DNA of 25,898 nt from a virus. The number at the start of each line of letters is the position of its first letter. Position 1 is the stretch's first letter. The DNA is taken from the IMG/VR virus record IMGVR_UViG_3300005099_000072, positions 1-25,898 of that record; one strand, written 5' to 3'. The position numbers and the translations under genes were made by a program. This document shows positions 1-25,898 of this stretch, one piece after another. The notes beneath the pieces were generated by a model. That model worked only from the letters and a program-made list of their open reading frames with translations, did no database searches and was not told the origin of the DNA.

Positions 1-766
1 CGCTGGGATATAGGAAGTATTCATGTAAATCTGGGCGTTGAACCCCGGCCTTTACCTTTCCTAGCCATATCGCACACATATATGCATCTTTATATGCGGT
101 GGCGCCTACGTCACCGGCTTCGATGATATATGATTTATCGAAGAGGACATATTTCTCTATAAGCTTCGCATCTTCCGGACCGATAATTAATTCTTTCTCC
201 GCCTTTACTGCTGTACTTGGTTCTTGAGCAGACGGCTTTACTATAGCTAGGCCTTTTGATACATTACCTGTCCTGGGGTCCCGTCTACCTATCAGCGTGT
301 CAAAGTAATCTGGGATAGCATTTTGTGTTATGACCCATTGGACAAACGCATTCTTAAACTTCATTCGCAGGTCAACATGGATGGAGTGACCTTCTATAAG
401 TTTTGCAAAGGAGAGCTTACCTCTCTGATATGCTTGCGTATCATCTGGGTCTAAGCCTCTAATATGCATTTGTGCCCAGGCAATGCCCTCATCATAATTA
501 ACATAGCAAATCTTTGGCAAGGGCTTAAGCTCCTCAGCAATTTCCTCGTATATCTCCTCGGGAATATGCTTCTTCTCCAGCCAGCTACAAACATCCTCCT
601 TCTTAATGGCCTTAAGCAGCACCTCAATCTTCGACCACAGAGGTATGGAGTCAAATAGTTCCGAATAATATATCTCCGTAGCATCATCGGATGAAATGCC
701 TTGAAATCCGTTAAGCGATTTTGCATAGACTATCTCACCATCATCTCGCAATAACTTAAAAGTCAT
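1..766 (-). CDS. LigD 3'-phosphoesterase-like protein (partial, runs off left edge)
   Basis: The frame is open from ATG at 766 to the window edge (255 codons, no stop), so the C-terminus is missing. Residues 126-134 read GHSIHVDLR and are followed by an F-x-x-W stretch. This resembles the H-x-D-L-R signature of the 3'-phosphoesterase (PE) domain of bacterial and archaeal LigD, which trims 3'-phosphate or ribonucleotide ends before ligation. The segment near 216-252 (EAGDVGAT, then GVQRPDLHEYFL) also has a LigD-PE flavour. Residues 1-110 are not recognised. The start overlaps the end of the upstream ligase fusion by 11 nt and has a GGGGT stretch just before it, so translation is probably coupled. 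The PE assignment rests on short motifs and is tentative; the reading frame itself is secure. Confidence 0.6.
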   Translation of the reverse strand, partial: MTFKLLRDDGEIVYAKSLNGFQGISSDDATEIYYSELFDSIPLWSKIEVLLKAIKKEDVCSWLEKKHIPEEIYEEIAEELKPLPKICYVNYDEGIAWAQMHIRGLDPDDTQAYQRGKLSFAKLIEGHSIHVDLRMKFKNAFVQWVITQNAIPDYFDTLIGRRDPRTGNVSKGLAIVKPSAQEPSTAVKAEKELIIGPEDAKLIEKYVLFDKSYIIEAGDVGATAYKDAYMCAIWLGKVKAGVQRPDLHEYFLYPS

Positions 767-3700
767 ACCCCAACGCTGATGCTTGTTCGAGGACAGCATG
801 CAAGTAGGAGGCGAATTCTCGGCCTTGAGAATATATATTTGCCATGTCGAAGGCTTCAGCCCGTGCAATAGCATCTCTTGTAGCTGTGGTGATATCTGGA
901 CCGATACCTATGCCTGCAGCCACAACTACATCACCTGGAACAAACCAGATGTTATCATCTTGCTTTATAGCTCGGCGATATGCAATCCAATCCGTATCAT
1001 CCCGATTATATCGGATAATCCTCCAGGTCTCAGCATCATCCGTATAGACGCCGATTTGAACGGAGTATTTATCGAGAACTTTAGGCGTTAGAGTATCACC
1101 ACGTGCTACACCCAACATGAACTCCGAATAGTTCCTAAATACTTTCGGATATGCGTAAGAGCAGATATATGGAAAGCGAGGAGTGACATCAGTAACGTAG
1201 ACTTTAGAGCCATCCCAAAAGCCTTCCAAGCAGAACATACCAACGTAACCATTTTTTCGTAGCCAAGGCTCTAGTTTCTCAAGAATGTCTCTCCAAATAC
1301 TTTCATGGATAGTATTAAATTTCGTTGCGTTCCCACAACCCTTCATTTCTATCGTATCAGCAACGACTTCATTAAATTCTCGTCCGTTAAACCAAGCATC
1401 TACACCGATTTCGATGCCATTAAGCTTTTCCTCGACTATAAAGGAGACATCATCGCCTAATACTTGAAACGCACCTCGTGAAAGTAGCATTGCTGCCTCA
1501 TCCGGGTCATCAGTGCCGAATGTCTCCACATCTCCTCTGACTCGACTGATTTTAACGAAGACCTTTTCCTTCGCTGCCTTTACTGCATCAATCACTCCCT
1601 GCACTCCCTTTACGATTTTACCAGGAGGAATTGGAATATTTAACTGCTCGAATATTTTTCTAACATATGCCCGATCAAGCTCCAAACGTTCGCTAGTTCC
1701 ATCACCACCTATAACATAATATCCTTTTGAGCGAAGCCATTCTGCAAGATGACCGAAGCCGGAATCAGTGAAGATTACATAACTTGCATCCTTTTCAAGG
1801 CCTTCACCCCAATCCCAGATTTTGATTATCTCTGGAAATCCTAGCCCACATACTTCATCTTGAATTCTTGGATAAGGTTGGCTGTGTGCTATAGCAAAGA
1901 ATGTTTCATAGCCATCTAATCCGAATCGGCGTGCATGCTCAAGTCCAAGATTTGTATCAACAACCAGAATTTTATCATCCTTTGATTCTGCCTTCCGCTT
2001 CATATCATAGTCATCATCGACCGGAAAGAAATAATGGCCATTTGATTTCAACACACCTCTCTTTAATTCCTCAGGATGCTCTTTCCAATGTCTAAGTACA
2101 TCAACTGGAATTCGCATTGGTTCGAAAGATGATAGTTTGTCTATTGTCTCAATCGAGTCTGTAACGTTCTTCTCCGGGACTGGCTCTAAAACTCGGCCGA
2201 TATAGAACGAATAACGAGGATATTCTGGATGTTTCGGATTATCAAATTTAAGGACCTCTTCAGCAGCAATTCTGATAATGTCGCCGACCTTGACTGGCTC
2301 TTCTTCTTTGTGATTATCGGATTTACCCATAAGGGTCACAAACGTTACACTCTTATCATCGAGATAGTTCTTTGCGTCCTTCCCTACAGCTAGAATTTTG
2401 CCATTCTTGTATACATGAACTTTACCATACCATGCCTTCTTACCAACATCGAGATAAGCTTTGGCATAATCTCTTGGAGTATCATATCCGAGATAGTAGT
2501 TATAGACATCTTTCGTACCTTTGACGAGTTTCTTTCCAAGGACTCTCAAGTCAAGTTCGTGATAGAATTTAACCTTCATCCAGCCTTTATTTTGAGGCGT
2601 TTCATAAGGATGGTCAAGGCGCTTAATCATTATACCTTCAGCACAGAATTTAGGCCTGCCATTCTTGCTCTCCTCAAGGATTTCAGCGACTTTTAGAATA
2701 GTCTTTACATCACTTCCATCACAGATATAACCATCTGCTTTTTTAGAGAGTGTTTTGGATACTCGCTCAATCCATATATGCTTAGTTGGCTTTAGTTGTG
2801 ACAGGTATTCCAGACGCTCATGTAGTGGCTGGTCACGGACATCTAGTCCCTTAAAAAATATAACATCAAAGACTACGATAATAGCGAATTGCTCTAACTC
2901 CTCACCAGATATTTTGGAATTGAGAAGTGAGTTAGCGACAGTGCGATGAAGCATTTCTTTACCATTGGGATGGAGTGCAAGGAATTCGCTGTCTAATACA
3001 GTGTTATCAGGAAAGTTTTCTTCAATCTCCTTAATAATTGCCGGAATTCGGTTAGAAACATTCGGGCTCTTTTTCTTCACATCCTCTGGGTCGACGTAAG
3101 CGAAACCTTTACCATTGACCTTCCCAATCGTCATTCTTAATCCGTCCCACTTGCAGTCTACTAATACCTTGGTTTTGTCCCAACCGATGGATTTAAGCTC
3201 TTCTGCTAATTCTTGGAAATAGCCTCTGTAATAAGGCTTAGATTTTGAGTAATATCCAGGTTTGATTTTCGCTTTCTTTATCACACCTTTACGCTTCTCA
3301 TCCCACTCTTTAGCTTCCTCAATAGTCTTTGGTGGTTTAGATTTCATGTACTTTTCTGCTTCTTTATAGCATTTCCAGAATGATGACTCCTTTGCTTTCT
3401 TAGGGTCTTTGCCGTAATAAGCTTTATAAAGCTTCTCATCGAATGGTGGAATCAGTGGAAAGTAAATTGAACGGAGTGTATCAACAATCTTAGCAAAGTA
3501 TTTCAATACATCGGTTAGCTTCCAATCACCCCATTTCTTTCCAGCCTTTAATCGTGGATATGCTGAATTGCCTAAGTACCGGAGGTCAGCTATAAGCTCT
3601 TTCCATCGTTCTTTAGGATGAGCAAGGTCATAATCAACACCTTCGCTTCTGAATTCATCGAGGTGAAGCTTTTCGGTTATGTAATATTGTTCGATATCAT

Positions 3701-4718
3701 TTACGAATGTTTGTATGCCCTTTGGCAACTTAAGAGCTTTCTTTTTACTAAATGGGCTAAATGACTTTATGGGATATGCGTAAAGAGGAAAATTCCAATT
3801 CCACTTTCGAACTTCTGCTGGAGAAATTAGATGTTCCTTTGCATGAAGATAGAATTCCTTCCAGCTACGAATTATTATTGGCTCATCTAGAATAATATTG
3901 CCATAAGCATATTCATTGTCGCAAAGCACGTATTTCTTATTCGCCATATCAAATTTCCTTGATTTGAGAATCATGGTCTTAAGTCCTTTATAGATAAACT
4001 CTGCATGAGGCTTAACTAGGTATAAGCCATCCGCCTTTCGGATTGCCTTAACCTTAATTTCGAATTCATCACCATCATTAAGGAACTCGCCTTTCCACGG
4101 CTTTAAGGCTTCTAATATCTCTTGTTTATGTTTGAGGAGGGATGTCCTATAGTTCGTGATGTAAATCTTTTGTGGTTTTAGTTCCTCCGCAAGAGCGAGT
4201 AAGTCTTTAAATGTTGCTTTATGGTCATCACTTCGAGGCTTTTCATATTCACCAACGCCGATAATCCATATAGCGCCCTTCATCAATTCCTTCTCTTGAT
4301 CACCGAGTCGAATAAATTCCGGAATTATAACCAGAGCATTCCGACCGCTGCCGATTTTAAAAGCAACTGCTGGTTTGCCGACCATCTTTGGAATTGCCAT
4401 TAGTTTAATGGACTTGCCACCTAACTTAATTGGCTTCTCAGTTCGCTTCCAATTTGCCTTCGGAAGAAGCAAACGCATATGACTAATCACAGCTCTTGTT
4501 GAGTATATCGGTGTGTCAGGATATTTCTCGAGATATTTGGGAAGGTAGCGCCAATGGTCTTCATCAGGCGAGGATAAGAGAATAAAATCAACAGGCTCTG
4601 TATATTTAACTGCTGGGTCAATCCAAGCACGCTTGCCTCTATGCTCTAATATAAGGGAGAAATGTTTTTTGCCTTTCAATCCGTATGATGCCCAACTCCC
4701 AAGAGAAATTACCTTCAT
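756..4718 (-). CDS. MBL-like / ATP-dependent DNA ligase / PurD-like ATP-grasp fusion protein (1320 aa)
   Basis: Three domains are visible. Residues 1 to about 225 look like a metallo-beta-lactamase fold (WIDP, then FILLSSPDEDHW at 45-56), but the usual HxHxDH is degraded to SxDxDH. Residues about 500-850 are an ATP-dependent DNA ligase: motif I KWDG (K523), DSEFLAL (576-582), VVFDVIFF (615-622), AEGIMIKR (693-700), WMKVKF (713-718), and an OB-type segment ending near HPEYPRYSFYIGRV (830-843). Residues about 915-1320 resemble PurD-type ATP-grasp enzymes: GGDGTSE (1004-1010), VFVKISRVRG (1053-1062), FIVEEKLNG (1093-1101), VTDVTPRFP (1175-1183). Residues 225-500 are unassigned. Known ATP-dependent ligases seal nicks through enzyme-AMP; the other two domains could process ends or perform a second ATP-dependent ligation, which is inference. 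The start overlaps the HIT gene stop (ATGA) behind GAGG. The ligase domain is near certain, the ATP-grasp likely and the MBL plausible. Confidence 0.88.
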   Translation of the reverse strand: MKVISLGSWASYGLKGKKHFSLILEHRGKRAWIDPAVKYTEPVDFILLSSPDEDHWRYLPKYLEKYPDTPIYSTRAVISHMRLLLPKANWKRTEKPIKLGGKSIKLMAIPKMVGKPAVAFKIGSGRNALVIIPEFIRLGDQEKELMKGAIWIIGVGEYEKPRSDDHKATFKDLLALAEELKPQKIYITNYRTSLLKHKQEILEALKPWKGEFLNDGDEFEIKVKAIRKADGLYLVKPHAEFIYKGLKTMILKSRKFDMANKKYVLCDNEYAYGNIILDEPIIIRSWKEFYLHAKEHLISPAEVRKWNWNFPLYAYPIKSFSPFSKKKALKLPKGIQTFVNDIEQYYITEKLHLDEFRSEGVDYDLAHPKERWKELIADLRYLGNSAYPRLKAGKKWGDWKLTDVLKYFAKIVDTLRSIYFPLIPPFDEKLYKAYYGKDPKKAKESSFWKCYKEAEKYMKSKPPKTIEEAKEWDEKRKGVIKKAKIKPGYYSKSKPYYRGYFQELAEELKSIGWDKTKVLVDCKWDGLRMTIGKVNGKGFAYVDPEDVKKKSPNVSNRIPAIIKEIEENFPDNTVLDSEFLALHPNGKEMLHRTVANSLLNSKISGEELEQFAIIVVFDVIFFKGLDVRDQPLHERLEYLSQLKPTKHIWIERVSKTLSKKADGYICDGSDVKTILKVAEILEESKNGRPKFCAEGIMIKRLDHPYETPQNKGWMKVKFYHELDLRVLGKKLVKGTKDVYNYYLGYDTPRDYAKAYLDVGKKAWYGKVHVYKNGKILAVGKDAKNYLDDKSVTFVTLMGKSDNHKEEEPVKVGDIIRIAAEEVLKFDNPKHPEYPRYSFYIGRVLEPVPEKNVTDSIETIDKLSSFEPMRIPVDVLRHWKEHPEELKRGVLKSNGHYFFPVDDDYDMKRKAESKDDKILVVDTNLGLEHARRFGLDGYETFFAIAHSQPYPRIQDEVCGLGFPEIIKIWDWGEGLEKDASYVIFTDSGFGHLAEWLRSKGYYVIGGDGTSERLELDRAYVRKIFEQLNIPIPPGKIVKGVQGVIDAVKAAKEKVFVKISRVRGDVETFGTDDPDEAAMLLSRGAFQVLGDDVSFIVEEKLNGIEIGVDAWFNGREFNEVVADTIEMKGCGNATKFNTIHESIWRDILEKLEPWLRKNGYVGMFCLEGFWDGSKVYVTDVTPRFPYICSYAYPKVFRNYSEFMLGVARGDTLTPKVLDKYSVQIGVYTDDAETWRIIRYNRDDTDWIAYRRAIKQDDNIWFVPGDVVVAAGIGIGPDITTATRDAIARAEAFDMANIYSQGREFASYLHAVLEQASALGYDF

Positions 4719-5080
4719 ATTCTCTTCCTCAAATCAGGTAACTTTTTAGGGTCAACCACTCCATGTTGGATATATGCATGGAAATGATCTGGCTCATAGC
4801 GCCTATCAATCTTAAGATATATTCCTTGACCAAACAAACGCCTCGCATGATAGAGCATATAGCCCCAACGTGTCTTATCAACATCAGGTATGTGCTCGGA
4901 TGCTACCACAACAGGCTTATGATTGAAGGGACAGTCAATTATGATGAGCATTCGTTCACCTATGCGATGAGGCTCAGGATAGTATAACTTGGTTGGCGGT
5001 CGTTTGGATTTTATTATCTCACAAAATTTACAGCCATCAACGAGGAATGGCCTGTCATAGAGTTTATCTAATTCTAGCAT
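4715..5080 (-). CDS. HIT-family protein (aprataxin-like candidate)
   Basis: A 121-aa protein read from ATG at 5080; a longer frame starts at 5140 but lies inside the protease gene. C17 and C20 (CKFCEI) match the CxxC-x-I opening of HIT hydrolases. PFNHKPVVVASEH (51-63) matches the family's P-x-N-x-G-H-x-L-V-x-P-x-x-H strand. DHFHAYIQHG (98-107) sits where the H-x-H-x-H-x-x histidine triad belongs, with the last His replaced by Tyr (H99, H101, Y103). HIT proteins hydrolyse or transfer nucleoside monophosphates. Aprataxin removes AMP left on DNA by failed ligation, and the ligase lies immediately downstream with an ATGA overlap, so that role is attractive but inferred. The altered triad could change the chemistry. 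It overlaps the protease gene by 17 nt. Confidence 0.68.
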   Translation of the reverse strand: MLELDKLYDRPFLVDGCKFCEIIKSKRPPTKLYYPEPHRIGERMLIIIDCPFNHKPVVVASEHIPDVDKTRWGYMLYHARRLFGQGIYLKIDRRYEPDHFHAYIQHGVVDPKKLPDLRKRI

Positions 5081-5546
5081 CTTTACACGCCGGATTAGTG
5101 ACGATTGCACATCCGAAAAATTCAATGTCATCCACGACAATGCACTTTTTCAAATAATCATAGTGGTCAGTTGTTATTATCTCAGATGACAAGTGGTTAA
5201 CCATCCCATTATCAATGAGAGCAATCGTGTCACGAGCTACAGTCGTATAGGGAAATATATAGAGGTCACCCTTTACCGCACCTTCTTCCCATCGAGGATT
5301 GACAATATAACCAACTCTATGAATCACCGATTGAGAGTGATCGATGTTCACATAATTAGAAGACCAGTTAGTGGCATATTTACGTAGAACCTCGGGTGTG
5401 TAAAGAACATAGTCCTTCGTCAAGGAATCAGCATACTTTCCCGGCGTTAGGATGACTACACCTTTATAGATTTTGGCGTTTGTAGCCTTTGATACGGTCT
5501 TGCTATCGTATTTAAAATTTATATCCACAAACCGCTTATGATGCAT
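5064..5546 (-). CDS. Prohead (capsid maturation) protease
   Basis: A 160-aa protein with the features of HK97-type prohead serine proteases. NIDHS places the catalytic His at 70, HLSSEI offers the serine at 120 or 121, and the end CAIVTNPACKDARI (146-159) matches the family's V-x-x-P-A-x-x-A-x-I pattern. This enzyme cleaves scaffold and capsid precursors inside the assembling head. The gene follows the portal with an 11-nt overlap and is preceded by GGAG at good spacing, the classic portal-protease order. In related viruses the major capsid gene usually comes next; here the HIT and ligase genes intervene and no capsid gene is seen. The protein has only a few residues after the protease core, so there is no fused scaffold. 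Confidence 0.82.
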   Translation of the reverse strand: MHHKRFVDINFKYDSKTVSKATNAKIYKGVVILTPGKYADSLTKDYVLYTPEVLRKYATNWSSNYVNIDHSQSVIHRVGYIVNPRWEEGAVKGDLYIFPYTTVARDTIALIDNGMVNHLSSEIITTDHYDYLKKCIVVDDIEFFGCAIVTNPACKDARIR

Positions 5547-6774
5547 TTAGCATCTCCTTATATTCAGACCTGAGTTTCTTTAGCTGCTCTTCAGTAAATG
5601 GCGGAAATCCAAACATTGACCTTATTTCATTAATCGTGAATGGCTTCAATTCATTCTTATAACCACGAAGGAGATTTCCAAGCCATTTCGCTTTCATTGC
5701 CTCATCTTCATCAGTAACACTTCTAAAGACCACTCGTAAGTCCTTCATGTCCTCTTCGGTGTAGCCATATCCTTGGAGAAACGGCTTAAATATTTCACGA
5801 ACCAGGAATGATGCAAGCTTTAATTGGAATGATTTAATCATACGCTCATACATAACGGCCTTAATGTAAGCTGTAGCCTCGGTGGAGCCTCTACCCAAAC
5901 CCAGAGCTTCTTCAGGACAAAGCAAGCCTACAATAAGCTGTGTCTGGAAATAGTTGAAGTATTCCTCTACTCCAGATATGCCTCGCTCATCAATCGTCTC
6001 GACATTTATGGTCCAGGGTACAATAATCTCATTTTTCTCAGTTATATTCCTTAGCTCCTGTTTAATCTGCTCAAATACCGCATCAGGTATAGGTTCATTG
6101 ATTTTATCGGAGCCAATAGAGACAACATATTTCGGTGTTCCATGTCTAATAATCGCATTAGCTATTGCTTTGTCTGTCCTGACCTTTCGCTTAAGCGTGT
6201 CTATAGAGGGTGATATGATAGAGATGCCATATGGCGTATCTGGGTCAGGGAAGAATCTAAAATGAGCAATATACTTCGGCTCTATTAAATCACCCTTCTG
6301 GCCATTGATGACCTGATAATAGCCCTCTATTCTCCCGTATTTGTCATATGCAATCTCCATTGTGATTGGGTTGACAACTTTGACGTCAAGAAGCTTATCC
6401 TCGGTCTTGTTAAATATTCGCTCTATAAATGCGTCACCGAAGACAAGACAATATATCACTGAATCAAGCAGCTTCGAGTCAAGGTCGGTATCAAGCCTAA
6501 ACTGCTCAAGCAGAAGCCTAATCTCCTCATTGGAGGTGAGGATATCATAGCCACTCATCACCGTGTTGAATGCGGTGTAGTTAATGGATGCAAAGATGGT
6601 GCTCTCGCCAGTGTAATACGACCATAGATTTTTAAGCGATTGTGGAGACCTCTTACTGGAGGAGATGCTAAAGCCCAAATCGCTTTCATCCGTTTTTATG
6701 ACAGTCCTTGGCCTACCTTTATCGTCAAGGAAGTAGGAACTCAATCCCAATAACCTCTTCAATCTATTAAACAT
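5536..6774 (-). CDS. Portal protein
   Basis: A 412-aa protein with the layout of phage portal proteins (HK97/SPP1-like superfamily). It has an N-terminal YYTGESTIFASINYTAFN-type helix region (52-69), then a domain with FGDAFIERIFN (112-122) and VVNPITMEIAYD (133-144). A helical segment with EALGLGRGSTEATAY (288-302) is typical of portals, where the L-G-x-G-x-S stretch precedes the stem. It forms the dodecameric DNA entry ring at one capsid vertex and docks the terminase. Its position between the large terminase (with the Alba gene between them) and the protease supports the call. The stop overlaps the protease start. The intervening Alba gene ends one base before the region of this start. Confidence 0.85.
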   Translation of the reverse strand: MFNRLKRLLGLSSYFLDDKGRPRTVIKTDESDLGFSISSSKRSPQSLKNLWSYYTGESTIFASINYTAFNTVMSGYDILTSNEEIRLLLEQFRLDTDLDSKLLDSVIYCLVFGDAFIERIFNKTEDKLLDVKVVNPITMEIAYDKYGRIEGYYQVINGQKGDLIEPKYIAHFRFFPDPDTPYGISIISPSIDTLKRKVRTDKAIANAIIRHGTPKYVVSIGSDKINEPIPDAVFEQIKQELRNITEKNEIIVPWTINVETIDERGISGVEEYFNYFQTQLIVGLLCPEEALGLGRGSTEATAYIKAVMYERMIKSFQLKLASFLVREIFKPFLQGYGYTEEDMKDLRVVFRSVTDEDEAMKAKWLGNLLRGYKNELKPFTINEIRSMFGFPPFTEEQLKKLRSEYKEMLNAS

Positions 6775-6775
6775 A

Positions 6776-7027
6776 CTAATCCGATTCAGCTAATATTATA
6801 TCAATTGTCGAGACAAACCTGTCATTAACTTTCTGGCTTCCTAAAGTAACCATAACAACTGGATTCTTCATATAGCGTTTGACTATCTCCTCTATGTCCA
6901 CGGCTTTTTTGATATATCGGCCTCTTGCAGATATTTTCACTTTATTTTCTCCGCTTTTCTGCAAAGCAGAGAGACATGCAGTTATATAACGACTTATGTC
7001 CTTATTCCCTACAAATATCTGCTCCAT
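6776..7027 (-). CDS. Alba-family nucleic-acid-binding chromatin protein
   Basis: An 83-aa protein, close to the usual 85-95 aa of archaeal Alba. Landmarks match along the length: IFVGNKDISRYITACLSAL (4-22) against the canonical G-K-K-P-x-x-x-Y opening, KVKISARGRYIKKAVDIEEI (29-48) against the I-x-A-R-G-x-x-I-x-K-A-V-D loop, and VTLGSQKVNDRFVSTIDIIL (60-79) against the G-S-x-V-x-x-x-x-x-x-S-T-I-x-I end. Alba dimers coat DNA and RNA in archaeal cells and are acetylation-regulated in some species. Here the gene sits between the large terminase (11-nt gap) and the portal (1-nt gap), suggesting late expression and a role in condensing viral DNA before or during packaging. That role is inferred; the family call is strong. 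Confidence 0.9.
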   Translation of the reverse strand: MEQIFVGNKDISRYITACLSALQKSGENKVKISARGRYIKKAVDIEEIVKRYMKNPVVMVTLGSQKVNDRFVSTIDIILAESD

Positions 7028-7038
7028 ATCATCCCTCC

Positions 7039-8418
7039 TTACACTTTCACAACTTTTTGACTGAGACCTCTATTGAGGGAGATAATTTGAAGAGCCTCAC
7101 GCCAGTTATATGTGGATGATTGACGAGATGCTAGTATTGCAAACGATAAAGCATCAACCGTATCATCATATTTGCCTCGAGGGAAAGTAAGTAGCTCATC
7201 AATCAGAACCTCAAAGCCTCTACTCGGAATGTACACTCTGCCAGTTTCAAACAATACAGACATCTGCTCGACTCTGGACATCTTATCAATTGATGATTTT
7301 ATCGGAGTGATAGGTAGAGTAGTAGACCGAATCAATTCGTCTGTGAATAACTTTTGCATAGCATTAGCTTCAATGCCTATCTTGATAGGCTCCCATTTCT
7401 CAGCCAATTCCCTAATAAGGTCGAATTGACGAAAGAGAGTTGCGTGAGTGCGTATCATATCCAAGACATAGATATCCCCGTTTTCGCTGATTCCGATAAT
7501 CACTATAACGAAGTAATCGCCTTTACTGTCACCAGCACTCATATCGACTCCCATGAAACGCCGAAGTCCTTGCGGAGCTTCATCATAGAACCGTAACCAA
7601 TCGTATTTAATGACTGCATCTTCAGAGGAGATGAATTCATTTTGAAATTGCATAGCGAAGACTGCTCTGCCTATCTGTTCCCGTATTTCGACCAACTTCT
7701 CATAAGGGAAGCGTTCTGGCCAGAGCACTTTCTTTTCTTTCTCATTGATGATGGCCTTGTAGACCTTAGATACGTAAGAGGGCTTAGACATCAGAAAGCC
7801 GTGGATGTCATTTTGATGAAAGCGTGTTCCTATATCAATTATCTGTCCGTTCGGGAGTAACATTGGAAGCAATATATGTGAATACCAGTCTTGCAATTCA
7901 CGTCTTCGGTGTTCAGTTCTGCTATTTTGCAGGTCAGTTATGTCGTCAAGGACGATAAGGTCGTAATGCCCCGATATCATTTTTGATTCTACGCCCAGCA
8001 CCTCAAGAGTTGGCTCTTTGTGAGCCACTCCGCTAATCCCCTGACGTTTAACTCGAAGCTGATTACGGGACCATTCACCTGTTCCTTTCTGTTCACCAAA
8101 TATCTCAATCAGTTTCTCGTTCTTTTCTAAGTGATGCTGAATGAAGGTCATCATTTCATTAGCCTTATTCTGATTGATGGTGACTATAAGAATACGGATA
8201 TCAGGGTCACGAACTATTCGCCAAATAATGTATCCACCGACAATGGTTGTCTTACCGAAGCCTCTTGGAGCAAGCAATACGACAAATTTATGCTTTTCAA
8301 ACAGCTCTATCCACTCTTTATGGAAATCCTTGATTTCTAAACCGAGAATGTCCTCCATGAAGGCGATGGGATCATTGGCGTAATAAAGTAAACGGTCGTA
8401 TACCTGCATGCCACTCAT
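7039..8418 (-). CDS. Terminase large subunit (ATPase/nuclease)
   Basis: A 459-aa DNA-packaging motor. The N-terminal ATPase has Walker A APRGFGKTT (50-58), Walker B LIVLDD (154-159) and coupling motif IGTRFHQND (196-204). The C-terminal RNase H-like nuclease has acidic positions in GVDMS (D292), IGIEAN (E350) and YDDTVDAL (D418/D419). It binds the portal, cuts concatemeric DNA and pumps it into the prohead. The start ATG at 8418 has GAGGT directly before it; ATG at 8409 (Met4) has better spacing to that sequence and is equally possible. The length is typical of the family and all catalytic residues are present. Confidence 0.95.
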   Translation of the reverse strand: MSGMQVYDRLLYYANDPIAFMEDILGLEIKDFHKEWIELFEKHKFVVLLAPRGFGKTTIVGGYIIWRIVRDPDIRILIVTINQNKANEMMTFIQHHLEKNEKLIEIFGEQKGTGEWSRNQLRVKRQGISGVAHKEPTLEVLGVESKMISGHYDLIVLDDITDLQNSRTEHRRRELQDWYSHILLPMLLPNGQIIDIGTRFHQNDIHGFLMSKPSYVSKVYKAIINEKEKKVLWPERFPYEKLVEIREQIGRAVFAMQFQNEFISSEDAVIKYDWLRFYDEAPQGLRRFMGVDMSAGDSKGDYFVIVIIGISENGDIYVLDMIRTHATLFRQFDLIRELAEKWEPIKIGIEANAMQKLFTDELIRSTTLPITPIKSSIDKMSRVEQMSVLFETGRVYIPSRGFEVLIDELLTFPRGKYDDTVDALSFAILASRQSSTYNWREALQIISLNRGLSQKVVKV

Positions 8419-13749: not shown

Positions 13750-14484
13750 ATGATATATGCAAAACTGCCGTTGTATGATGAAATAAAGAATAGTGAAGCA
13801 CGGCAAAAGATAATCGAGATATTCAATGAGATTGAAGAGCATGCAAAGAAAATCGATAAGCAAATAGAGTATTTAACCAGTGTATTCGAAAGAGGACTGG
13901 CATTATGCTTCCGCTCAAAACCCTCTAAAATTCGGTCTTCTGGCTATGGCTTCATCGTATTACGAAACGATGGAATATATCGACAGTGGTATGAAAACGG
14001 TCATTATCGGTCATTTTCACTCCGAGATAAGGACGATATGAATCGCCTTTTAGACGTAAGAGATGCAGTGATTGAATCTGCAAAGTCGTCTCAAAAAGGA
14101 CTCATCCGAGAAGTCATGAAAATGATAGCTGAATACGCAGAGAAGCGTCTTTACAATTCAATTAATTTGGAAATTGAGGTAACGACGGATGCTAATTACT
14201 TTTCAAAAGAGCCTCAAAAACGAAGCCTCGAAATTTCAGTTAAGCCACCATATGTCTATTTCCGCTTTTCCACATCCTCATATTATCATCCGAGTATTAA
14301 TTTCGACAGTTATGTCGACAATCTCTATCTCTACCCGATATATGACCATGCTATTAATCTTTTGATAAAGACAAAAGAAGCAACTCGAAAACGCCTTGAA
14401 GATATTGAGGAATTCTTAAAACGGTGGGATGGCTTAATTAGGCGGATAGAGGTTATGTGGAAATTTAAAGAGGGAAATATATGA
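13750..14484 (+). CDS. Unknown protein (244 aa) preceding the vWA-metallopeptidase
   Basis: A 244-aa protein from ATG 13750; the in-frame ATG 13738 lies before the ribosome binding site GGTGATGAG. It has an N-terminal helical segment (IEEHAKKIDKQIEYLTSVFE), a central beta-rich part (GYGFIVLRNDGIYRQWYENG), then helices and another sheet (LEISVKPPYVYFRFSTS), ending in a coiled-coil-like KEATRKRLEDIEEFLKRW. It overlaps the vWA gene by four bases (ATGA), so the two are translationally coupled and may act together. No family is recognised. Confidence 0.75.
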   Translation: MIYAKLPLYDEIKNSEARQKIIEIFNEIEEHAKKIDKQIEYLTSVFERGLALCFRSKPSKIRSSGYGFIVLRNDGIYRQWYENGHYRSFSLRDKDDMNRLLDVRDAVIESAKSSQKGLIREVMKMIAEYAEKRLYNSINLEIEVTTDANYFSKEPQKRSLEISVKPPYVYFRFSTSSYYHPSINFDSYVDNLYLYPIYDHAINLLIKTKEATRKRLEDIEEFLKRWDGLIRRIEVMWKFKEGNI

Positions 14485-15701
14485 GCCTCAGCCCAAAAGA
14501 GCAGATAACGAAAACCAGAATCTCATTATCCAGAAAATACCCATTCTTCGGCTATTTGGCGATGTATCTTAAGCCAGTCATCACAAATAAAGTAGAGACT
14601 GCCTGTGTTCAACTTGATGGAACACTCAAAGTAAATCCGAAATTTTTCAGCGAATTGGATGATGCCGAAAAAGAGGCAGTAATAGCCCATGAAGTCATGC
14701 ATTTAGCATTAGAGCATATTCAGAGAAGTAAGGGCAAAGAGCCAAAACTAAGGAATATTACTGATGATGCTGTCAATAATGCCATCCTACAAAAATCTGG
14801 CTTCAAACTTCCAAGAGGTGCTATTGTGCCAGATTATAATGACGTCTTCAGGTGTGCGATAGTTACTGAAAACGGCTATAAGACCGTCGAAATACCAGAT
14901 TGTAGTAAAAAGACATCCGATGAGATTTATGACATCCTCTACGCTCTTTACAAAAAGCATAATGGAACAGGATGGAAACTCAGCAATAATGCTCGTCCTT
15001 TAGATGAACATGCTACTGCACCGAAAGGCGATAATGGAGACACAAGTCAGAAAATGAAACAACAAGCGGAAATTTGGGCAAAAAGAGTGAAGGAAGCACT
15101 TGAGTATGCAAGGCAAAGAGGCAAAATGCCAGCAGGTCTCGATAGACTCATCGACAAGATATATGCCTCAAGAATACCATGGAGACAACTGCTTTACAAA
15201 TTCCTGATAAAATACCTGCCGATTGACTACACATATGCAAGACCGCATAAGAAATCCTATTCACTGAAAACTTACTTACCGTTCATTAAACGTGAAGGCA
15301 TCAATATAGTCGTCAGTATTGACACGTCAGGAAGCATTCGTCCTGAGGAACTGGAAGATGCATTATCAGAAGTAGTTGGGATAGTCCGCTCTGTTAGGAA
15401 TTCGAAAATGACGGTCATATATTCAGATGCAAAGGTTCAAAGAGTAGAGACCTATCACTGTCCTTCTGTCCACGACATCCTGAAATCGAAGCCAAAAGGT
15501 GGCGGTGGAACAGACCATAGACCTGTATTCAAATACATCGAAAAGAACTGTCAGGATGCCTCAGTAGTCATCGCATTCACAGACTTATGGACTGTCTTTC
15601 CAGATAAATTCAATAAGCCGACAATCTGGATTAACTTCGATGCATCAAATACAAAGAAGCCACCATTTGGGACAGTCATAAACTATTCAAAGAGGGGTTG
15701 A
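14481..15701 (+). CDS. vWA domain metallopeptidase-like protein (DUF2201/COG3864 type)
   Basis: A 406-aa protein. The N-terminal half has a zinc-protease motif HEVMH (70-74) within KEAVIAHEVMHLALEH, then TDDAVN (94-99), as in the putative metallopeptidase domain of this family. The C-terminal half is a von Willebrand A domain with MIDAS parts DTSGS (281-285), GGGTD (341-345) and FTDLW (366-370). Members of this family are commonly encoded beside MoxR-type AAA+ ATPases, as here, and such pairs act as remodelling or metal-insertion machines for target proteins. The viral substrate is unknown. All metal-binding motifs look intact. Confidence 0.88.
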   Translation: MSLSPKEQITKTRISLSRKYPFFGYLAMYLKPVITNKVETACVQLDGTLKVNPKFFSELDDAEKEAVIAHEVMHLALEHIQRSKGKEPKLRNITDDAVNNAILQKSGFKLPRGAIVPDYNDVFRCAIVTENGYKTVEIPDCSKKTSDEIYDILYALYKKHNGTGWKLSNNARPLDEHATAPKGDNGDTSQKMKQQAEIWAKRVKEALEYARQRGKMPAGLDRLIDKIYASRIPWRQLLYKFLIKYLPIDYTYARPHKKSYSLKTYLPFIKREGINIVVSIDTSGSIRPEELEDALSEVVGIVRSVRNSKMTVIYSDAKVQRVETYHCPSVHDILKSKPKGGGGTDHRPVFKYIEKNCQDASVVIAFTDLWTVFPDKFNKPTIWINFDASNTKKPPFGTVINYSKRG

Positions 15702-16058: not shown

Positions 16059-17186
16059 GTGAAATTGGAGGTAAATCATGAGGAGCTAAAGCAGATTTTG
16101 AAGGTGGTATGGAAAGCCAAACTGCCCTTGTTTATTTGGGGAGCACCAGGAATTGGGAAATCCTATATGGTCAGGGATGTCGCTAAAGAGATAGCAAAGG
16201 AGCTTGGAAGAGAATTCGTGGAGCTTAATAAGATAGACAAAGCCAAACGAAAAGAGATAGAGGCAAATCCTGAGAAGTATTTCGTTCTTTATGATATCAG
16301 GCTTAGTCAATACGACCCATCTGACCTAAGAGGACTGCCTGCATTAAATGGACAGGAAACTGTCGAGTGGCGGATAAATGACTGGGTGTATCTCTTCAGC
16401 AGACCTAATATCGCAGGCATAATCTTCTTTGATGAATTGAATCTTGCACCGCCATCAATACAGGCATCAGCATATCAGATTATCTTGGACAGGTGCATAT
16501 CCGATACGCCAATCGCAAAAGATGTTCTGATTGTATCAGCAGGCAATAGACTTGAAGATAAGGCAAATGTATTTGATATGCCAAAGCCACTTCAAAATAG
16601 ATTCCTTCACTGCACTCTGAGAGTTCCTTCAGTAGAGGAGTGGACTAAATGGGCACAAGAACATAATCTTGACATGAGGGTCATTACTTATCTGAATAGC
16701 AGACCTTCACATCTCTTCAAAATGGATGAGGAAAGCAATGACGAAGCATTCCCGACACCAAGAACCGTAGAATTCTGGGCAAGACTAATTAGGGATGTTC
16801 CTGATGAAGACCTTAATACGCTTGAGAAATTGACGGCAATAGCAGTAGGGACTGGAGTCGCTCTTGAGTTCGTATCATTCATTAAATTGAGAAGGCAGAT
16901 TGACTTCAAAGACTTGCTGGAGCATCCAGAAAAGTTGAGGCAAATAGAAGAGGTCGATATGAAATACGCTATTGTATCGCTAATAGCAGACTACTGGAGA
17001 AACTCCCGTAAAGATATGAAGACATTCGCTAAGTTGTTTAAGATTATCAAAGAATTCCCAGAGGCAGAATTCCAGATTATCACGCTTAGAGAAATACGCA
17101 GGCAGAGTCCAAAGATATTGTTCAATGCATTGATGAAAGTGCCAGAATATAATGAATGGGCGAATAAGATAATCCAGTATCTGTGA
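16059..17186 (+). CDS. MoxR-type AAA+ ATPase
   Basis: A 375-aa protein starting at GTG behind a near-ideal AAGGAGGTGAGAGC. Walker A GAPGIGKS (28-35), Walker B IIFFDE (121-126), sensor 1 AGN (161-163) and the arginine-finger region NRF (180-182) are all present. An insertion between Walker A and B with LSQYDPSDLRGLPALNG (82-98) is the MoxR-like pre-loop. MoxR ATPases work with vWA partners as chaperones that remodel or activate proteins. The partner here is the vWA-metallopeptidase 360 bp upstream. Confidence 0.9.
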   Translation: MKLEVNHEELKQILKVVWKAKLPLFIWGAPGIGKSYMVRDVAKEIAKELGREFVELNKIDKAKRKEIEANPEKYFVLYDIRLSQYDPSDLRGLPALNGQETVEWRINDWVYLFSRPNIAGIIFFDELNLAPPSIQASAYQIILDRCISDTPIAKDVLIVSAGNRLEDKANVFDMPKPLQNRFLHCTLRVPSVEEWTKWAQEHNLDMRVITYLNSRPSHLFKMDEESNDEAFPTPRTVEFWARLIRDVPDEDLNTLEKLTAIAVGTGVALEFVSFIKLRRQIDFKDLLEHPEKLRQIEEVDMKYAIVSLIADYWRNSRKDMKTFAKLFKIIKEFPEAEFQIITLREIRRQSPKILFNALMKVPEYNEWANKIIQYL

Positions 17187-23981: not shown

Positions 23982-24880
23982 AGATACACTGTCATAACGA
24001 TGCGGATGGAGTAACATCAGCCCTCTTCGCATGGTTTGGAAATCCGGAATATGAGATAGTGATGAAGAAAGAGTTCGGTGATACCAGTGGTTGGGAAAGC
24101 GGAGACATAATGGTCGATATGAGACCTGATGACCCAAGCATAGAGGGTCTCGTTATTGACCACCATCCTGGGCATCCAGACAATCGCAATTATTATCTAA
24201 TATGGGATGTATATCCTGCCTCCTATATCGCTTTTAATCACTTTAAGGAGTACATTCCAAAATCGCAGTATTGGAAGCTTGCAATAGGACTGGGCGGTGA
24301 TAATCAGCTTGAATTACTTGATGCAGAAATATTCGAGACAGAACCACAGCTCCTCTATAAAGTAAAGACCTATGCCTTTCATTCCTATGGCTCATGGCAA
24401 TTAGCTTACTATCCACTCTACAAACTCCTATCATCTCTCATAAATTCAGTGATAAGGATTGGTGACTTCGAAAACGCAATAAATTTGTTAAGATTTGCTG
24501 AACGACCTCTGGATATCTATCACTCGGAGATAGCACAGGAAGCAAGAAATAAAGTGCGAGATGAAGTGAAGAGGATAATGTCCTCATGCGATATAATCAA
24601 TCTTAAAGACGTCCATATAGTCATCTTCGAGTCAGATTATAAGCTAACCGGATATATCGCATCTGTAGTCGAGGCATCAAAGGACACATATGGCTCCACA
24701 ATTATGGCGATAAATAGGAAGGATGGCTCTCTGTCAGTCAGAGGTGATTTAGCATTATACATCAAACAGAAGCTTGAGAAACTGCCTTATATCGAAATCG
24801 ATGGGCATCCTGGATTTATGGGTGGACGAATCAAGCACAATCCATATGCCTTTATAGATGAACTGGCTAAGCTAATATGA
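23978..24880 (+). CDS. DHH-family phosphoesterase (RecJ-like)
   Basis: A 300-aa protein. Motif I HCHNDADGVTSALF (4-17) has the D-x-D pair, MVDMRP (45-50) is motif II, DHHPGH (61-66) is the DHH motif, and the C-terminal GHPGFMGGRI (about 277-286) matches the DHHA1 glycine-rich motif. Family members are exonucleases such as RecJ, archaeal GAN partners of the replisome, or nucleotide phosphatases. At 300 aa it has both catalytic domains but no extra DNA-binding domain, so a nano-RNase-like or small exonuclease activity is possible. It lies between a possible ssDNA-binding gene and a RadA-like gene, joined by ATGA overlaps. Confidence 0.88.
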   Translation: MKIHCHNDADGVTSALFAWFGNPEYEIVMKKEFGDTSGWESGDIMVDMRPDDPSIEGLVIDHHPGHPDNRNYYLIWDVYPASYIAFNHFKEYIPKSQYWKLAIGLGGDNQLELLDAEIFETEPQLLYKVKTYAFHSYGSWQLAYYPLYKLLSSLINSVIRIGDFENAINLLRFAERPLDIYHSEIAQEARNKVRDEVKRIMSSCDIINLKDVHIVIFESDYKLTGYIASVVEASKDTYGSTIMAINRKDGSLSVRGDLALYIKQKLEKLPYIEIDGHPGFMGGRIKHNPYAFIDELAKLI

Positions 24881-25898
24881 AGATACTGAATGCATCTTTC
24901 GATAATGATGGAATTGCTAGGATTGAAGTGTTATCAGATTCTAACAATTGTTATATGGTGTGTATCGATGGTGAAACTCTAAAAACATGGTGTGACTGTC
25001 CAAGATGGGTCTATAAAAAGGAACAGTGCAAGCATATTAAGTTTGTTCTTGAGAATGTGAATTTGTCTGGTTTGAGGAGGTTAGAGAATATGGATGTGTT
25101 GAAAAGTGAATGTGTCACTATCGACACCCTTTTAGGCGGTGGCTTCCCTTATGGGATGGTGGTATCAGTAACAGCAGAGCCTAACATCGGTAAGACTAAA
25201 TTGGGCTTGCAACTTGCTGTTGCTAATATCAAAAAGACCGGTAAGAACTCCATCATAATAGAAACTGAGGGTGAGTCCCTTGATGACCAATTTGTGATTC
25301 TTGAGAAGTTTGGTAAGCGATATGGAGTGGACAAAAATACGCTTAAGGCAAAGATAAAATTCTATCAGCCGATAGGTGACACTAAAGAATATGGCATTCA
25401 AAAGTTAATGAAGTTACTTGGATATGACCTCGGCTTATCACTCAGTAAAGGCGGTAAATTCTCTGTTGATTTTGCTCAGACTAAACTTGGATTAGATGAG
25501 AAGGTATTGCAAAATTCATCCTTCATATTGCTCGATTCGATTACTACTCCAATTAAGGAATCAGTAGGCTCAGAGACTCAAAATCTACCAGCAAGAGCTG
25601 CAATAGTTCAAAGACTTTATGGTAGGCTTTATCAGATAGCGAAGACATACAATATGCTGATTGTAGTAAATCACCACACATCCTTAAATCCAGTTATGCC
25701 GTTCGGGAAAGACCTCGGAAAGATTTATGGAGGACAACCAGTCCTATACAACTCTAAATATGCAATTCAGATATTGCCATCTACATCCGAGTTGAAGAGA
25801 AAATACTATCAGGGATTTGAGGAGGAGGCACGGAGAGTCAAACTAATCAGACATCCTTATATAGTCGCAGATGGCAAGATGTATAACGTAAGATTAAA
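24877..25898 (+). CDS. SWIM zinc finger fused to RadA/RecA-like ATPase (partial at right edge)
   Basis: The frame is open for 340 codons to the window end. Residues 39-53 form a SWIM finger, C-x-C-x9-C-x-H (C39, C41, C51, H53). From M72 the sequence is RecA-like: VTIDTLLGGGFPYGMVVSVT, Walker A EPNIGKT (101-107, Ala instead of the usual first Gly), Walker B FILLD (216-220), IVVNHH (262-267) and GGQPVLYNSKYAIQI (285-299). It is probably a strand-exchange or recombination mediator. SWIM proteins such as Sws1 partner Rad51 paralogues in eukaryotes, so the fusion makes sense. A strong GAGGAGG site precedes the internal ATG 25090, so the RecA part may also be made alone. The end is missing. Confidence 0.8.
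   Translation, partial: MKILNASFDNDGIARIEVLSDSNNCYMVCIDGETLKTWCDCPRWVYKKEQCKHIKFVLENVNLSGLRRLENMDVLKSECVTIDTLLGGGFPYGMVVSVTAEPNIGKTKLGLQLAVANIKKTGKNSIIIETEGESLDDQFVILEKFGKRYGVDKNTLKAKIKFYQPIGDTKEYGIQKLMKLLGYDLGLSLSKGGKFSVDFAQTKLGLDEKVLQNSSFILLDSITTPIKESVGSETQNLPARAAIVQRLYGRLYQIAKTYNMLIVVNHHTSLNPVMPFGKDLGKIYGGQPVLYNSKYAIQILPSTSELKRKYYQGFEEEARRVKLIRHPYIVADGKMYNVRL

Follow-up and report, generated by a model that had tools for sequence, protein, structure and literature searches.

The window analyzed here, 25,898 bp in length, is the whole of IMG/VR record IMGVR_UViG_3300005099_000072; no terminal repeats were found at its ends, and the contig is probably a fragment of a viral genome. It contains a densely packed head operon, all of whose genes lie on the minus strand, in which a DNA ligase fusion and a LigD-PE-like protein, the subjects of this study, are encoded downstream of the portal gene. 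The operon comprises the large terminase TerL (7039..8418; PHROG 38, E 3e-100), an Alba-family DNA-binding protein (6776..7027; Pfam Alba, E 5e-14) that also lies between terminase and portal in most relatives, the portal protein (5536..6774; PHROG 9232 portal, E 3e-24; Pfam Portal_Mu, E 3e-7), a small S78-like protease-like protein (5064..5546; Pfam Peptidase_S78, E 0.019, below cut-off), a HIT-like, putative zinc protein of 121 amino acids (4715..5080), a 1320-residue MBL/ligase/ATP-grasp fusion (756..4718), and the PE-like protein (2..766), which is truncated by the contig end. Consecutive genes overlap by 17 nucleotides (protease/HIT), 4 nucleotides (HIT/fusion) and 11 nucleotides (fusion/PE); both this order and the overlaps of 4 to 17 nucleotides are exactly as the original prediction had described them. 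A close relative, L018 (related contigs carry L numbers), is 96% identical to the window across a 597-bp overlap; past the PE gene it encodes a 92-residue protein, a nucleotidyltransferase/S78 protease/scaffold protein and an HK97-type capsid protein. The S78 protease at this downstream position, where it is joined to the nucleotidyltransferase domain and the scaffold, is the clearer of the two (L002:10954-12579; Pfam, E 8e-10).

The DNA ligase that had been proposed within the fusion is beyond doubt, judging by its profile match and motifs: residues 496-720 (2559..3233) match Pfam DNA_ligase_A_M above the curated cut-off (E 1e-17), and motifs I, IV and V are intact in the window and its close relatives (KWDG, with the catalytic Lys523; EGIMIK; WMKVK). 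Residues 721-885 (2064..2558), which are conserved in the family alignment (A3) and into which a PHROG 114 ligase match extends as far as residue 832, we take to be an OB-like C-terminal ligase domain from their position and from what is known of the family. Upstream of the ligase core is a conserved linker (residues 346-495; 3234..3683) that is defined by the same alignment and matches no Pfam family. The ATP-grasp domain at the C-terminus (residues 886-1320; 759..2063) was also correctly predicted: Pfam GARS_A matches it with E 0.009, and its stand-alone homologue, L004:9011-10387, with E 3e-6. It is fused to the ligase in the window only; it has its own gene in L004 and L005, and is missing from L002, L003, L007 and L008.

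Residues 1-225 of the fusion (4044..4718) form the MBL-fold domain, for which the Pfam Lactamase_B_2 match is below the curated cut-off in the window (E 2e-4) and reaches E 1e-28 in relatives. The homology proposed earlier thus stands, but the metal ligands do not: the HxHxDH site reads SPDEDH in the window, and SPDEDH or TQSDEDH across the window clade, so that the first two of the metal-binding histidines have been lost. In other fusions the site is intact (HLHPDH in L102, THAHPDH in L188) or reads HxHxDA (L111, L186). The domain nevertheless shows low nonsynonymous divergence (dN) with saturated synonymous divergence (dS), comparable to the terminase; since this is so despite the loss of metal ligands, a structural role is suggested for the MBL part in the window clade. 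Low dN with saturated dS extends throughout the ligation unit, consistent with strong purifying selection. Between the MBL and ligase parts is an ASCH/PUA-like domain that was absent from the original prediction (residues 226-345; 3684..4043): its profile (A10) matches the solved ASCH protein TTHA0113 along its full length in a PDB profile search (E 0.005), the TTHA0113 chain is itself scored as ASCH by Pfam, and the ASCH family is matched in L186 (E 0.025). An hhalign comparison of this part with archaeal ASCH proteins was not significant, being no better than the reversed control.

Recognition of the PE-like protein required a wide alignment. The window-clade sequences alone gave no Pfam, PDB or fold match (hhalign probability, 2%), a direct Pfam scan was negative, a PDB profile search was empty even with the wide viral alignment, and an AlphaFold model built from the shallow family alignment had a pLDDT of 48 and no meaningful fold match. 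Once sequences from L102, L104, L109, L113 and L114 were added, however, hhalign aligned the viral set with archaeal PE proteins (LigD_N, PF13298) at 94.4% probability (P 8.6e-8), against controls (reversed sequences, and the HIT, ASCH and nucleotidyltransferase families) that were all ≤0.3%. That alignment spans the HxDxR motif, a glycine-rich PxGxxGA stretch and the terminal GRF/GRY strand. The catalytic HxDxR is HVDLR in the window protein (at about 379-365); members of the viral set have either HxDxR or HxDxM. The earlier assignment as LigD-PE-like therefore holds as homology and for this motif, but not for the remaining metal and phosphate ligand positions; because positions conserved in cellular PE proteins are replaced (the viral set conserves HEYFL instead), the window protein is PE-like by descent, but PE chemistry cannot be assumed from its sequence.

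In L002-L009, L018, L019 and L033 the genes follow one another, within the limits of each contig, as portal, protease, HIT, MBL/ligase, PE, small protein, nucleotidyltransferase/S78/scaffold, cement and capsid; L030 shows the same succession, minus the MBL part, up to a contig end inside PE. The expectation that related viruses would share the gene order is thereby borne out; since every relative of sufficient length shows it, the arrangement is not a product of chance. L003 and L033 encode PE and MBL/ligase as a single protein, and L019 encodes a fusion of ligase and PE. Comparison of protein identities with the window reveals a further property of this locus. The L003 portal is the closest to that of the window (84%), and its ligase is 74% identical; the corresponding values are 53% and 80% for L008, and 35% and 73% for L019. 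Because ligase identity disagrees with portal identity in this way, the ligase is, by these comparisons, a cassette that operons have swapped with one another, always in the same slot. Inteins usually insert at conserved sites of important proteins, and they are present in the ligases of L007 (L007:5576-9361) and L023, and in the terminase, PE and scaffold proteins of L033 (three in one contig).

The original prediction regarded the set as lacking a polymerase, and this is doubtful. An N-terminal Pol beta-type nucleotidyltransferase domain is present on the downstream head protease/scaffold protein of the relatives (L002:10954-12579 and homologues); hhalign scores it at 77% against PF01909 members, with a reversed control of 0.3%, and it is homologous to a domain that in other viruses is fused directly to the ligase.

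Those other viruses belong to a wider family of portal-adjacent fusions. The Thermoplasmatota-bin contig L102, which also appears as the viral contigs L103-L107, differs in its terminase and portal, and encodes a 1144-residue ASCH-like/MBL/ligase/PE fusion. Searching with this fusion recovered L108-L113, and searching with the ASCH-like alignment recovered L186 and L188. In L102, L108-L113, L186, L188 and ANMV-1 (L114) the fusion lies right after the portal or ≤2 genes away, usually followed by protease and capsid genes (the L188 portal is assigned by place only); in ANMV-1 the fusion begins at 3200, just after the end of the portal at 3193. The parts occur in varied order: MBL, ASCH-like, Pol beta-type nucleotidyltransferase (Pfam E 0.015 in L186), ligase, one or two PE-like stretches and sometimes a methyltransferase. 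The extreme case is L188:7517-12754, a 1745-residue protein with nucleotidyltransferase, ligase, MBL, ASCH-like and D12-type DNA methyltransferase parts and two PE-like stretches, downstream of which is a protein with a capsid protein as its C-terminus. In L109 an XkdF head protease (E 3e-25) forms the end of the ligase and PE fusion. The pairing of ligase with PE as a unit, as originally proposed, gains from their fusion in single proteins, which occurs in L003, L019 and L033 and again in L102, L109, L113, L114/ANMV-1, L186 and L188; the placement of such a unit within the head operon is likewise seen in many viruses. Carriers are tailed viruses, found mainly in sediments of hot vents and seeps. 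Their terminases share ~20-30% identity across groups or have no detectable match, except for a closer trio (L110, L111, L113); because the terminases are so diverged, the portal-adjacent arrangement would appear to be old, or to have been assembled repeatedly.

The HIT-like protein has a separate history. The four best PDB profile matches are all HIT proteins, albeit weak (best E 0.015), and an hhalign comparison with archaeal HIT proteins was weak (3%); a model from a shallow alignment (pLDDT 71) had no significant fold match, with HIT structures only at ranks 42-44 with low scores. The full HxHxH triad is present in L030, L031, L033, L046, L050 and L051, and the HIT fold is likely. In the window clade the triad is HxHxY, the third histidine being a tyrosine (HFHAY in the window, within the degenerate DHFHAY at about 4786-4772); it is HxCxH in L019 and HxYxE in L049, and since these have Cys and Tyr at the middle histidine, the HIT nucleophile is not conserved. 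HIT-family similarity, as assigned earlier, thus holds, but the histidine triad is degenerate in the window. A CxxC, N-terminal in the window protein, and two histidines are invariant among the HIT-like proteins, and by analogy with other HIT proteins would form a zinc site. The HIT gene is kept in the head operons of six contigs (L031, L046, L048-L051) that lack ligase and PE at this position. Furthermore, between the window and L008, HIT identity is 33%, portal 53% and ligase 80%: HIT divergence tracks the portal, not the ligase. Coevolution of HIT with the ligase was considered and rejected on these identity comparisons. In view of its retention without ligase or PE and its divergence along with the portal, the HIT-like protein is, as far as comparative evidence goes, a separate, putatively zinc-binding head-operon protein, a mere neighbor of the ligation unit rather than a needed member.

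We hypothesize, and give the idea even chances of being right, that the MBL/ASCH-like/ligase(/ATP-grasp) protein and the PE-like protein act as one unit, an enzyme of a tailed virus that is expressed late, associates with the head and repairs DNA breaks or ends. Its support comes from the intact ligase motifs, PE homology, fusions, portal adjacency, the nucleotidyltransferase domain on the protease/scaffold of the relatives, cassette swaps, low dN with saturated dS, and inteins; from these, together with gene order and domain content, we infer its substrate, timing and location. The ASCH-like and MBL-fold parts would bind nucleic acid or partner proteins, the MBL part of the window clade probably being a non-catalytic scaffold. 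The PE-like part would trim blocked 3' ends, the Pol beta-type nucleotidyltransferase on the neighboring head protease/scaffold may add, fill or tail nucleotides, and the ligase would adenylate and then seal. The enzyme most likely enters the procapsid near the portal, because it is encoded between the portal and capsid genes and, in L109, is fused to the head protease; this XkdF fusion strengthens the case for carriage in the virion, a possibility raised by the original prediction. It would act on the viral genome itself, closing nicks or ends around packaging or on entry, or perhaps in the particle.

Several observations weigh against this hypothesis. The unit is dispensable, since a related clade (L031, L046, L048-L051) has either a capsid paralogue or nothing in the slot: in L046 and L048-L051 a second capsid-protein paralogue and small genes take the place of ligase and PE (L046:5482-6426, Pfam Phage_capsid E 1.5e-9; L048:2560-3489; L049:5773-6699; L050:8421-9368; L051:6337-7299), the paralogue being a diverged HK97-type protein, 37-39% identical to the main capsid protein. 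Some ligase copies may be inactive: the OB end is missing from the ligase parts of L110, L111 and L113, and KFKG replaces KxDG in L110. The QKH and EDHxxxYxxFEG conserved in cellular PE proteins have no clear counterpart in the viral set. RNA substrates, too, may be possible.

A different reading of the same architecture is that of an injected, 'polyvalent' counter-defence protein that acts on host targets, its ligase, MBL, ASCH-like and methyltransferase parts forming a swappable toolbox that might, for example, repair RNA cut by host nucleases or modify viral DNA or signal nucleotides. The domain shuffling, the giant size, the methyltransferases added in L188 and L112, the exchange of cassettes between operons, and the action of ASCH relatives on RNA or nucleosides would all suit such a role. 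Injected polyvalent proteins are, moreover, a known phage theme, being large, swappable and multi-domain, and delivered with the DNA (PMC7824862); the proteins described here share the large, swappable, multi-domain build. Yet their recurring core of ligase and PE is a coherent DNA-end set, the end-joining pair of LigD; Pfam and PHROGs place the ligase among DNA rather than RNA ligases, save for a weak extra RNA_ligase match in L108; and the window proteins gave no match to anti-phage defence profiles. We consider counter-defence unlikely. We are similarly doubtful of an enzyme confined to packaging, which would mend nicks and gaps in the concatemer while the terminase fills the head, or process the packaged ends, and for which retention in the virion would be unnecessary. 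T4-type phages require nick repair for packaging, and the fusion genes are usually near portal and terminase; however, the head protease fusion in L109 points to the procapsid interior and not the motor, and related viruses with the same terminase type have no ligase in the slot.

The proposal that HIT, ligase and PE constitute one Ku-less set resembling non-homologous end joining (NHEJ), in which HIT reverses abortive adenylation as aprataxin does, draws on the adjacency and overlap of the three genes in the window and its relatives, on the likely HIT fold and on the contigs in which HxHxH is intact. Set against this are the six contigs that retain HIT without a ligase, the disagreement between HIT and ligase divergence, the erosion of the catalytic histidines (lost in L019 and L049, and the third in the window clade), and the fact that no HIT-like gene was recognized beside the ligase of L102, L108, L111 or ANMV-1. 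Such a three-part kit is thus very improbable. Finally, the unit could be a passenger, that is, a host-derived repair gene that is transcribed late by accident of position and has no function in the head. It is indeed missing from some related viruses and exchanged as a cassette, but the same portal-side position in deeply separated viruses and the protease fusion are hard to obtain by accident, and the strong purifying selection is not what a passenger would be expected to show; this we regard as the remotest of prospects.

Among the closest known counterparts of the proposed repair enzyme is the LigD/NHEJ system of bacteria and archaea (PF13298, TIGR02779), which similarly combines an ATP-dependent ligase with a PE-type 3'-end domain and has a nucleotidyltransferase nearby. 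The viral module differs in that no AEP-type primase-polymerase was seen and no Ku was found among the window genes scanned (a subset of the genes of a partial contig), that its PE is too diverged for Pfam, that MBL and ASCH-like parts are added, and that it is encoded among viral head genes. In INPHARED, ANMV-1 alone matched beyond a single domain; tblastn with the window fusion and PE found no match there, and the link to ANMV-1 runs via L102, L186 and L188. Its protein AJP62006.1, annotated only as 'ATP-dependent DNA ligase', belongs to the portal-adjacent family described above and unites nucleotidyltransferase, ligase and PE-like parts in a single polypeptide, although no MBL or ASCH-like part was found in it; the text of the ANMV-1 paper does not mention a ligase (PMC4372165). 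The PolX-ligase fusion of Phaeocystis globosa virus and the repair set of African swine fever virus combine a Pol beta-type nucleotidyltransferase with a ligase for viral genome repair (PMC5537341); unlike the present module, these belong to unrelated eukaryotic viruses and lie outside any portal-capsid operon, and the abstract describes no PE, MBL or ASCH-like domain. PHROGs 1530 and 14859 match the XkdF protease region of L109, so that here too an XkdF region lies inside proteins annotated as nucleic-acid enzymes; the annotations, however, are DNA methyltransferase and RNA ligase, respectively, not DNA ligase and PE. The arrangement itself was not found described in titles, abstracts or searched passages, subscription literature being outside that scope.

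The window also contains genes that bear on the virus more generally. On the plus strand, at 14481-15701 and 16059-17186, a DUF2201 metallopeptidase/VWA protein (E 2e-34) is encoded near a MoxR-like AAA ATPase, a chaperone-like pair that is unusual in a virus. Also on the plus strand, at 24877-25896, is a RecA/Rad51/KaiC-like ATPase with an N-terminal SWIM zinc finger, truncated by the contig end. The Alba gene suggests an archaeal host; bins were rejected as an unsafe guide to the host, as relatives are placed in one Thermoplasmata and one Planctomycetota metagenome-assembled genome.

The components are of known kinds; what appears to be new is that they are combined in this way, that the combination is tied to the portal and head protease, and that it occurs across deeply separated groups of viruses. 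More tentatively than for the enzyme itself, and with some doubt, we suggest that these proteins may represent a widespread capsid-borne class of tailed-virus enzymes, seated in the protease/portal neighborhood and built by domain shuffling across deeply separated viruses, that would process and ligate the ends of the viral genome independently of Ku. DNA ligases tend to be classed as early-expressed replication or repair genes. The finding of a ligase with a LigD-type end-cleaning domain at the portal and head protease of very distant viruses suggests that genome mending or end closure belongs to virion assembly or entry in these viruses. The divergent ligase-PE enzymes would constitute a new family, and they offer a concrete candidate for the means by which viruses from hot and subsurface habitats may handle broken DNA inside the particle.

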